From the NCBI RefSeq assembly GCF_002090175.1, contig NZ_BBRN01000004.1:558001-622000 (forward strand): a stretch of DNA of 64,000 bases. Direction: 5' to 3'. Source of the DNA: Demequina sp. NBRC 110057 (lineage in GTDB: Bacteria > Actinomycetota > Actinomycetes > Actinomycetales > Demequinaceae). Position 1 is the first letter of the stretch. Every line of letters begins with the position of its first letter. Positions 420-2,875 of the stretch are shown here, piece after piece. The notes below the pieces were generated by a model, which did not search any database, was not told where the DNA came from, and saw nothing but the letters and a program-made list of their open reading frames with translations. The position numbers and the translations under genes were made by a program.

Positions 420-992
420 TCAGGAGGCCTGGGTGCGCTTGGCGCGGCGCTCGGCGAGCTCGTCGGTGCCGTCGGTGACCGGGTCGTCCTCGCCGCGGTC
501 GGCGGGAAGCTCGGACAGCGAGCCCTCGAGCTCACGCCATACCTTTCCCAACGCGATGCCGAACACTCCCTGTCCGCCCTGGACAAGGTCGATGACTTCG
601 TCGTCGGACGTGCACTCGTACACCGAGGCGCCATCGGACATGAGGGTGATGCGAGACAGGTCCTCGACGCCGCGCTCGCGCAGGTGGGACACGGCGCTAC
701 GAATCTGCTGGAGCGACACTCCCGAGTCCAGGAGTCGCTTCACGACGCGCAGCACGAGAATGTCGCGGAAGCCGTACAGGCGCTGCGTGCCCGATCCCCC
801 GGCGGAACGCACGGTGGGCTCCACGAGGCCGGTCCTCGCCCAGTAGTCGAGCTGGCGGTAGGTGATGCCGGCGGCCTTGCAGGCGATGGGCCCGCGGTAG
901 CCGGCGTTGCGGTCGAGATCGGCGAGGCCGTCGTCGAAGAGGATGCCTTGATCGCTCACGATGCGCACGTCGTAAGTCCCGCCGTCAGCCAT
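420..992 (-). CDS. MerR-family regulator (Rv1830-like)
   Basis: A 190-residue protein with a winged-helix DNA-binding domain at about residues 35-105. The recognition region reads AGITYRQLDYWARTGLV and the wing contains GTQRLYGFRDILVLRVVKRL. The rest is a short helical C-terminal region without a recognisable ligand domain. Its position after ftsR and garA matches the mycobacterial Rv1827-Rv1830 neighbourhood, so an Rv1830-type regulator is the best match. The DUF151 nuclease gene that sits between the two MerR genes in mycobacteria is absent here. The ATG is preceded by a GAGGAGGG ribosome-binding site. Target genes cannot be read from the sequence. Confidence 0.85.
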   Translation of the reverse strand: MADGGTYDVRIVSDQGILFDDGLADLDRNAGYRGPIACKAAGITYRQLDYWARTGLVEPTVRSAGGSGTQRLYGFRDILVLRVVKRLLDSGVSLQQIRSAVSHLRERGVEDLSRITLMSDGASVYECTSDDEVIDLVQGGQGVFGIALGKVWRELEGSLSELPADRGEDDPVTDGTDELAERRAKRTQAS

Positions 993-1081
993 GAGCCCTC
1001 CTCTTTCCCACGTCCTTCAACCTACGGTTGAGGCTTTGCCTGGTCAACGCACCACGCGGGTGGCGCCAGGTCACGATTCCT

Positions 1082-1804
1082 TTACGTGTCGACGCGCGCG
1101 TGAAGCCACGCCGAGAACAGCGCGACGGCGGCGTCGGTGCGGGCGCGCGTCGCGGCATCGGCCTCGGCGTCCCTGCCTTTGGACCGGTCGGCACGTCCCG
1201 CGCCGACGGCTCCGTCGGCCTCGCGGCCCACGGCTCGTCCCAGCACCACCAGGTCGCGCGGCGAGCCGCCGGACGCCAGGTACGCGCCAGCAGCGACCAC
1301 GAGCGGCACCACCGCGCGGTCGAAGCGTCCCGGCACGGCCTGGGCGATCACTCCATCGGCCTCGAGCACGGCGACCACGTCGGCGTCCACCGACGCGGCG
1401 GCAGCAAGGTCGGCCGGGGACAGGAACGAGTCGCGCTGGTCCACGGCGTGAGGCACCACCGCCTCGTGCATGCGGCCCTCGTCGAGCGCGGTCAGGTGCT
1501 CGGCGATGACGCTCAGTGGACGGTAATGGTCGCGCTGCTGACGCAGCACAAAACGCACCCGCTCGACATCGGCGGGCGAATACTGGCGGTAGCCGGAGGG
1601 AGTGCGATGCGGGCTGACCAGGCCGTTCGAGTCAAGGAAGCGGAGCTTCGACGGGCTCAGCGCGGGGAACTCGGCCTGGACGAGCGCCAACACGTCGGAG
1701 ACCCGCAGCAGCGGTTCGTGCGACAGGGCGTGCGGCCAGGTGCCCTCGAGCGGCTCGGGCGCCTCGCGCCGCGGCTCGGGCCCTGCTGCGCTCAGCGCGG
1801 GCAT
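1082..1804 (-). CDS. ftsR: MerR-family regulator FtsR (Rv1828-like)
   Basis: A 240-residue MerR protein. The HTH lies near residues 30-105 and contains LRVSDVLALVQAEFP, PSKLRFLDSNGLVSPHRTPS and GYRQYSPADVERVRFVLRQQ, which match the FtsR/Rv1828 type. In Corynebacterium this regulator is linked to ftsZ expression. The C-terminal half is Ala-rich and probably mediates dimerisation. The gene starts only four bases after the garA stop, so the two are almost certainly co-transcribed from upstream of pgsA. The ATG at 1804 has no strong ribosome-binding site, as expected for a coupled start. Confidence 0.88.
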   Translation of the reverse strand: MPALSAAGPEPRREAPEPLEGTWPHALSHEPLLRVSDVLALVQAEFPALSPSKLRFLDSNGLVSPHRTPSGYRQYSPADVERVRFVLRQQRDHYRPLSVIAEHLTALDEGRMHEAVVPHAVDQRDSFLSPADLAAAASVDADVVAVLEADGVIAQAVPGRFDRAVVPLVVAAGAYLASGGSPRDLVVLGRAVGREADGAVGAGRADRSKGRDAEADAATRARTDAAVALFSAWLHARVDT

Positions 1805-1808
1805 ACGG

Positions 1809-2228
1809 TCAGCGGGCCGTTCCGGGGTGGAAGGTCATCCGGTACTTGCCGATCTGCACCTCGTCGCCGGCGGCGAGAACCTTCTCGCTGACCAGCTCGC
1901 GGTTCACATATGTGCCGTTGAGCGAGCCGGCGTCCTTGACCGTGAACGACGCGCCCTCGCGCAGGAACTGCACGTGTTCGCGGCTGACGGTGACGTCGTC
2001 GAGGAAGATGTCGGAGGACACCGATCGGCCCGCCGTGGTCAGGTCCACATCCAGCAGGAAGCGGGCTCCCTGATTGGGGCCGTGGTGGACGATCAGCAAC
2101 GCGCAGTGCTCGTCGAGCGCGTCGATCGCCGCATCGTCCTGGGTGGACAGCCGCGCGGGCGAGTCCTCCGCGTTGATCTGGGCATCGAGGGACATGGTCC
2201 GCTCGACAGGACTCTCGTCGTAGGTCAT
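1809..2228 (-). CDS. garA: GarA/OdhI-type FHA protein
   Basis: A 139-residue protein with one forkhead-associated domain at about residues 45-135, including AGRSVSSDIFLDDVTVSREH and GSLNGTYVNRE, the phosphothreonine-binding loops. GarA/OdhI proteins inhibit 2-oxoglutarate dehydrogenase and adjust glutamate metabolism; Ser/Thr kinases switch them off by phosphorylating an N-terminal ETTS motif, which then binds the protein's own FHA domain. Here the equivalent stretch reads VERTMSLD (residues 8-15): the first Thr is replaced by Arg10, the second is kept as Thr11, and the Ser is Met12. The start overlaps the pgsA-like stop (ATGA), so the genes are translationally coupled. The position before ftsR is the conserved garA location. 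Confidence 0.92.
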   Translation of the reverse strand: MTYDESPVERTMSLDAQINAEDSPARLSTQDDAAIDALDEHCALLIVHHGPNQGARFLLDVDLTTAGRSVSSDIFLDDVTVSREHVQFLREGASFTVKDAGSLNGTYVNRELVSEKVLAAGDEVQIGKYRMTFHPGTAR

Positions 2229-2875
2229 GACGCCTCCTCGCTGTCTCGGATCGTGGCTTCCATCCTAGGCCCGTCGGCGGCCGGTCGCGCTCGCCGCGCC
2301 GCCGCGGCACGATGGCGAATGTCCTGGACGTAGCCCACCCCGGAGATCCAGTACAGGACCGCCGCCCCCAGCGACAGCACGATCGCGAGGACGTTCAGCC
2401 ACGTCGCCACCTCGTAGCCCACATAGGCAAGGGGAAGGGTGATGTACAGGCAGAACGTGGCGGCCTTGCCCACGAATGTCACGTGGGGGCTGCGGATCTT
2501 GCGCGAGCGGCCGTACAGCAGGGCCGTCCCGACCATCGCGTCGCGCGCCATCAGGATGATGACGAGCCACCACGGGATAACGTCGCGGATCGCGAGGCCG
2601 AGCACCACCACGAGGGTGAGCAACCGGTCCGCGGCGGGGTCGAGCAGCCTTCCCAGGGCGGTCACCTGGTTCCAGCGACGCGCCAGGAAGCCGTCGAGGA
2701 AGTCGGAGAAGCCGGCGCACGCGAGCACGATGATCGCGGCGACGTCCTGTTCCCCGATGAAGAGCCCGCCGAACACGGCGATGAGCAGGATCCGGACGAA
2801 CGAGATCACGTTCGGGACCGTCCACACCGCGTGCGACACCGGGTAGGGCCGCTGCTCGGGAGGGGGGAGACTCAC
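2225..2875 (-). CDS. CDP-alcohol phosphatidyltransferase (PgsA-like)
   Basis: A 216-residue integral membrane enzyme. The complete CDP-alcohol phosphatidyltransferase signature (DxxDGxxARx8GxxxDxxxD) lies at about residues 57-83 and is visible as SDFLDGFLARRWNQ followed by GRLLDPAAD. Five or six hydrophobic segments surround it. It should move a phosphatidyl group from CDP-diacylglycerol to a small alcohol such as glycerol-3-phosphate or inositol phosphate; the substrate is not decided by the sequence. The order with garA and ftsR matches the Rv1822-Rv1828 region, though gcvH is missing. The GTG start at 2875 follows a TAGCAT hexamer (complement of 2883-2888) by 7 bases, so the operon transcript is probably leaderless. 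Confidence 0.88.
   Translation of the reverse strand: MSLPPPEQRPYPVSHAVWTVPNVISFVRILLIAVFGGLFIGEQDVAAIIVLACAGFSDFLDGFLARRWNQVTALGRLLDPAADRLLTLVVVLGLAIRDVIPWWLVIILMARDAMVGTALLYGRSRKIRSPHVTFVGKAATFCLYITLPLAYVGYEVATWLNVLAIVLSLGAAVLYWISGVGYVQDIRHRAAAARRARPAADGPRMEATIRDSEEAS

Follow-up and report, generated by a model that had tools for sequence, protein, structure and literature searches.

The textbook GarA switch has two threonines; GarA of Demequina has one, and this second, PknB-type threonine was never seen lost among the relatives that we read. PknG uses the first threonine of GarA/OdhI in mycobacteria and corynebacteria, and in Demequina an arginine stands in its place. The constant part of the switch is the second threonine, not the PknG site. 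The GarA/OdhI switch, which is used in glutamate and antibiotic engineering, couples the citric acid cycle to amino acid supply and to signals from the cell wall. Both threonines of the ETTS motif are called conserved in a recent paper (PMC12321487), and a report of the absence of the first one was not found in the open-licence literature, as far as its accessible portions go.

A GarA ortholog with a single switch threonine

The window analysed here, a stretch of 64,000 nucleotides from Demequina sp. NBRC 110057, contains garA and the neighbouring genes listed in Table 1. In translation, the 139-aa product begins MTYDESPVERTMSL... (MTYDESPVERTMSLDAQ...), and a short N-terminal tail is followed by one FHA domain (PF00498, E 1.1e-16, residues 64-127). 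Among solved structures GarA and OdhI match it best, with E-values from 9.5e-37 to 2.4e-32, and in phmmer alignments to 2kfu and 6i2p (E about 1e-36) the residues R10-T11 align with T21-T22 of GarA; T11, the equivalent of the PknB-type switch threonine (T22 in GarA, T15 in OdhI), is present in 44 of 44 Demequina genomes. The best NCBIfam family is the OdhI equivalog NF041660, yet the score of 149.6 bits lies below the cut-off of 200, a shortfall that we counted against the one-site reading developed below. By place and similarity the product is a GarA/OdhI ortholog, though a divergent member of that family and not a typical one, with ERTM in 44/44 genomes where GarA and OdhI are marked by the two threonines of ETTS.

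Table 1. The garA region of the window: positions, strand and basis of each assignment
Feature	Position	Strand	Basis
garA/odhI ortholog, 139 aa, single-Thr switch tail and FHA domain	1809..2228	minus	similarity, 44/44 genus orthologs
switch motif E9-R10-T11-M12; R10 PknG-type position, T11 PknB-type	2193..2204	minus	sequence, GarA alignment, conservation
S28-T29 of RLSTQDD, alternative site of the first-pass annotation	2142..2147	minus	conservation, weakly supported
FHA core, residues 64-127	1848..2039	minus	Pfam FHA PF00498, E 1.1e-16
ftsR (MerR family), adjoins garA	1082..1804	minus	NCBIfam FtsR equivalog 158.7 bits, cut-off 150; Pfam MerR_1
second MerR-family regulator of the cluster	420..992	minus	Pfam MerR_1
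pgsA-like CDP-alcohol phosphatidyltransferase, stop overlaps garA start	2225..2875	minus	Pfam PF01066, E 3.2e-33

A family search recovered garA in all 44 genomes of the genus, where the motif reads VERTM in 36 (the window's own context among them), AERTM in 7 and LERTM in 1. The first-pass annotation, made from the window alone, had stated that the FHA domain is intact, which the Pfam match confirms, and that the first switch threonine is missing, which is borne out by the GarA alignment and by these 44 genomes. The two genomes of a sister genus (L151 and L152) carry EQTL and EQTM, and at E 1e-20 GarA was not matched in the single genome of a third Demequinaceae genus, G068, which is 89% complete at 1.1 Mb. 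Since ERTM is found throughout the genus and EQTL or EQTM in its sister, the motif is neither a sequencing error nor a quirk of one species, and the first threonine was probably replaced, by glutamine or arginine, in the ancestor of the Demequinaceae. T11 is the sole invariant Ser/Thr of the tail in the 44 Demequina proteins; S13 is serine in 43 of them, and the linker behind ERTM varies.

The comparison with the known systems brings out both the kinship and the difference. With mycobacterial GarA (Rv1827; PDB 2kfu, 6i2p, 8p5r) the Demequina protein shares the FHA domain, the switch tail and the second threonine, T22, and the two-in-one OdhA, the target of mycobacterial GarA, is likewise encoded in the Demequina genome; the mycobacterial motif is ETTS instead of ERTM, however, no PknG was found in Demequina, and the segment VFRADF behind the mycobacterial motif is absent. 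OdhI of Corynebacterium glutamicum (PDB 2kb3, 8p5x) has in common the FHA domain and the second threonine, T15, whereas its PknG site, T14, corresponds to arginine in Demequina and its R53 to His49. GarA of Saccharopolyspora erythraea, which also comes from outside the model genera, keeps ETTS, unlike Demequina, and is reportedly phosphorylated there (PMC12321487).

Downstream of garA lie ftsR and a second merR gene. We take the adjacency of ftsR and garA/odhI to be the gene order of the model genera. Only 89 bases separate ftsR from the second merR gene (window 420-1804), and the nuclease gene that lies between the two in mycobacteria is missing here.

Kinases and OdhA in Demequina

The PknG_TPR family (PF16918) was matched in 0 of the 38 Demequina genomes tested out of 44 (37 and G065), a result obtained with one family model; this agrees with the first-pass expectation that pknG would be missing where GarA has ERTM. 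A search with the rubredoxin family gave no match in 47 genomes, nor in any control genome, and for the latter reason is not used as evidence for the absence of PknG.

Kinases and OdhA were searched in the window's own genome only, where six PF00069 loci were found. They include a PknB with PASTA domains (NF033483, 672 bits), the kinase gene directly upstream of it (L295) and a second PASTA kinase (L296). The genome's OdhA (L294) is a full E2o-E1o fusion of 1299 aa (NF008907, 1966 bits), with 8p5r, 2xt6 and 8p5t as best solved matches, the entries being those of a "multifunctional 2-oxoglutarate metabolism enzyme", of 2-oxoglutarate decarboxylase and of E1/E2. Seven OdhI residues are named as OdhA contacts in one paper (PMC10415282). 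Mapped over the equal-length stretch 29-138 versus 33-142 of the solved-match alignment, with an ungapped offset assumed, six of the seven are kept (R68, S82, R83, L103, K128, R130) and R53 is His49. Window positions 2082-2087 encode H48-H49 of an HHGPN stretch at the place of this Arg53, one of the cited OdhA contacts; most Demequina tails read HHGPN, and a few HYGPN or LHGPN.

PknG and the first threonine in other lineages

The order was sampled with a draw of 149 genomes, 18 of which match PF16918 over the cut-off. Outside the family, the GarA tails of 56 genomes (21 and 35) were classified by eye and 54 were resolved, two being left out of the counts (G038, with an ambiguous tail, and G042, with no recognisable motif); G332 contains another candidate motif further upstream and was assigned on its resemblance to G319, and G325 matches PF16918 only below the cut-off. 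Both threonines are present in 15/15 PknG-positive genomes and in 31/39 PknG-negative ones, the other eight carrying S, H, E or Q in place of the first threonine. The difference between 8/39 and 0/15 has a Fisher p of 0.09, uncorrected for kinship, and all changes of the first threonine read in the order, those of Demequina included, fall in PknG-negative genomes. Since 31 of the 39 PknG-negative genomes keep Thr-Thr, a lack of PknG usually comes without loss of the threonine.

In the Pseudonocardiaceae the trend is the reverse of what the first-pass annotation would lead one to expect. In a draw of 120 genomes, PF16918 was found over the cut-off in 90 and GarA in 118, and all 118 GarA tails were read, taking the best GarA match per genome only (several genomes, among them G101, G115, G123, G147, G179 and G201, contain more than one GarA-like gene). 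Here as in the order, the PknG and GarA results were taken to come from the same draw, as their handles and numbers agree, and the PknG-negative members were obtained by subtraction; "PknG-positive" stands for PF16918 over the cut-off and may include PknG-like paralogs. The 80 named loci are examples outside the totals, some of them duplicating counted genomes. The first position is R in 67 tails, T in 25, Q in 11, S in 11 and K in 4, and the second is threonine in 118/118. Among genomes with PknG the first position is threonine in 5 and another residue in 85, mostly as E-R-T-S; among those without PknG it is threonine in 20 and another residue in 8. The raw inverse association has a Fisher p of 5e-12, but in a garA tree built from the FHA part the state of the first threonine changes 3 times and PknG 8 times, and an independent-pairs test finds 3 supported pairs (p 1). 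Kinship explains much of the inverse pattern, which reflects few events on the tree, and we do not claim an inverse association of PknG and the first threonine as a law. That PknG and a GarA without the first threonine coexist is an observation that needs no tree.

Coexistence is seen in named genera: Actinosynnema, Saccharothrix and Lentzea have ERTS (L121, L129, L139), and all have PknG_TPR at E 2.7e-66 or better. In G130, whose GarA has ERTS, the gene order is glnX-glnH-pknG (L309). Its PknG has rubredoxin, kinase and TPR parts and matches the "probable serine/threonine-protein kinase pknG" of 2pzi (E 1.3e-167), its GlnH matches the "probable glutamine-binding lipoprotein GlnH" of 6h2t (E 2.3e-91), and its GlnX belongs to the NCBIfam GlnX family NF058618 (440 bits, cut-off 250) and lies far below the narrower equivalog NF041460 (232 of 780). 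The pknG surroundings were analysed with family models in eight genomes, leaving out the stretches L166, L167, L168 and L311. The GlnX family together with SBP_bac_3 and a rubredoxin-kinase-TPR PknG is found in G160 (L313), G106 (L308) and Actinosynnema (L165), all with ERTS, and the GlnX family with PknG in Lentzea (L163), Saccharothrix (L164) and G201 (L312), so that a GlnX-family gene lies beside PknG in 7/7 ERTS genomes checked in this way; the ETTS genome G196 (L310) likewise has both. By its domains and its gene partners, the PknG of the Pseudonocardiaceae checked is a real PknG, and with glnX, glnH and pknG in four ERTS genomes, the kinase and the presumed sensor genes are present without the known PknG residue of GarA. 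The ERTS proteins of Lentzea, Saccharothrix and Actinosynnema share with Demequina the arginine at the PknG-type and the threonine at the PknB-type position; they differ in that PknG is present, with a GlnX-family gene adjoining in the checked cases, and in the tail SVFRADF. The family belongs to a different order, and its arginine probably arose separately.

In Saccharothrix (L164:2562-9517), pknG belongs to a more extended gene cluster, in which Pfam also assigns PP2C, vWA and an FHA protein distinct from GarA; this FHA protein is a candidate for an alternative PknG partner. A transposase-like ORF, recognised by eye, lies between the PP2C gene and pknG (L164:5631-6842). On visual inspection, pknG has similar neighbours in Actinomadura, in Kitasatospora and in genomes of the window's order (L169, L171, L173, L174, L176).

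A third lineage is that of Nocardiopsis. N. metallicus (Nocardiopsis metallicus) has DVTS and a PknG (E 1.5e-98); in N. ansamitocini, Marinactinospora and Thermobifida the motif is ETTS, and PknG does not reach the cut-off. ETTS occurs together with PknG in the Streptomyces and Kitasatospora genomes tested (3/3) and in one Streptosporangiaceae MAG. In Actinomadura the first position is S, with PknG; in Motilibacter it is I, without PknG; and Planotetraspora has DTTS without PknG. The first position is thus labile with or without PknG. The second threonine, by comparison, is present in 218/218 resolved tails (44 of Demequina, 2 of the sister genus, 54 of the order and 118 of Pseudonocardiaceae, with 2 unresolved). 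The absence of PknG was not upheld as the rule behind the arginine, given the 31/39 PknG-negative genomes that keep Thr-Thr and the 85/90 PknG-positive Pseudonocardiaceae that lack the first threonine. The first-pass idea that an arginine at the PknG position signals a genome without PknG thus fits the order, where the changes read all lie in PknG-negative genomes, and fails in the Pseudonocardiaceae, where R, Q, K or S accompanies PknG.

A probable one-site switch and its alternatives

T11 is invariant, no PknG was found, PknB is present and the changes read in the order lie in PknG-negative genomes. Together these results make control of T11 by a PknB-class kinase the most likely interpretation for Demequina, and we regard it as probable that GarA of Demequina is a one-site switch in which phosphorylation of T11 by PknB-class kinases would free OdhA. 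The suggestion that a PknB-like kinase runs the switch alone is accordingly plausible for Demequina. From the sequence, its conservation and the genes found, we infer the following steps. The FHA domain of unphosphorylated GarA would bind and restrain OdhA, the two-in-one 2-oxoglutarate dehydrogenase; T11 would be phosphorylated by a kinase of the PknB class, whether PknB, the kinase encoded just upstream of it or the second PASTA kinase; and pT11 would dock into GarA's own FHA domain, releasing OdhA. The first position would be an accessory site, without threonine in several actinobacterial lineages whether or not they have PknG, and the second threonine the core acceptor.

The model genera offer partial precedents. 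T22/T15 is the reported PknB site, in OdhI also a PknA site, and OdhI is reported to adopt the closed form when T15 carries phosphate (PMC2784874); the PDB lists 2kfu as GarA phosphorylated at Thr22. The same study describes a strong phenotype for the first-site mutant of C. glutamicum and no strong growth defect for the second-site mutant (PMC2784874), and M. smegmatis GarA variants without the PknG site were mainly unphosphorylated (PMC5448819). Because of these mutant results, regulation through the second site only is weak in both species, and lineages with a single threonine would either rely on the second site to a greater degree or have a less regulated GarA.

A different history, in which PknG was lost first and the first threonine, left without a user, then drifted, is possible but unlikely. 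It accords with the lack of PknG matches in 38 Demequina genomes and with the lean of the order (8/39 against 0/15, at the uncorrected p given above), but it has to accommodate the 31 PknG-negative genomes that keep Thr-Thr, the reversal in the Pseudonocardiaceae (85/90 PknG-positive against 8/28 PknG-negative genomes without the threonine), the valine beside PknG in N. metallicus and the threonine of its three PknG-negative companions named above, and the invariance of ERTM across Demequina, which is unlike drift. It is improbable that the Demequina tail is no phospho-switch at all, GarA being a constant inhibitor or controlled through its level or by proteolysis. Of the two known sites one has indeed disappeared, and S. 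erythraea GarA is reported to be truncated in a way that takes the switch away (PMC12321487), but ERTM (44/44) and S13 (43/44) are kept while the linker behind them varies, and kinases are present in the window's own genome.

The first-pass annotation had offered the Ser/Thr of RLSTQDD as another site, and a takeover of second-site control by S28 is very unlikely. S28 is serine in 41/44 Demequina genomes, but it is glycine in three and T29 is threonine in only 5/44, so the proposal is rejected for T29 and weak for S28; FHA domains, moreover, bind pThr rather than pSer. That the motif is an artefact of start-codon choice or sequence, with a true ETT elsewhere or translation from M12, which is indeed an in-frame ATG, is hardly credible, because the garA ATG overlaps the pgsA stop (ATGA) with AGGAGG ahead of M1, 12 codons upstream the frame is closed and no ATG, GTG or TTG lies in between, so that a different start supplies no second threonine, and 44 genomes share the motif and, for the most part, the leader. 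The ETT hidden by a wrong start, which the first-pass annotation had named as a possible objection, was therefore rejected.

Implications

The proposed PknB-class one-site switch concerns Demequina; the wider pattern is that the PknG-type threonine is absent from 44 Demequina genomes and from 85 of 90 PknG-bearing Pseudonocardiaceae, and that the PknB-type threonine is in every resolved tail. We tentatively suggest that the code of two threonines and two kinases may be local and the second threonine universal. Because GarA lacks the first threonine in Pseudonocardiaceae and Nocardiopsis that have PknG (with GlnX/GlnH where checked, in Pseudonocardiaceae), PknG may there act through the second threonine or another FHA partner. 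The stronger lead is PknG beside a GarA without the known PknG target residue, which makes the substrate of PknG outside mycobacteria and corynebacteria a directly testable question. The pattern also suggests that switch mutants designed on ETTS would not be transferable to many genera, including some of industrial use.
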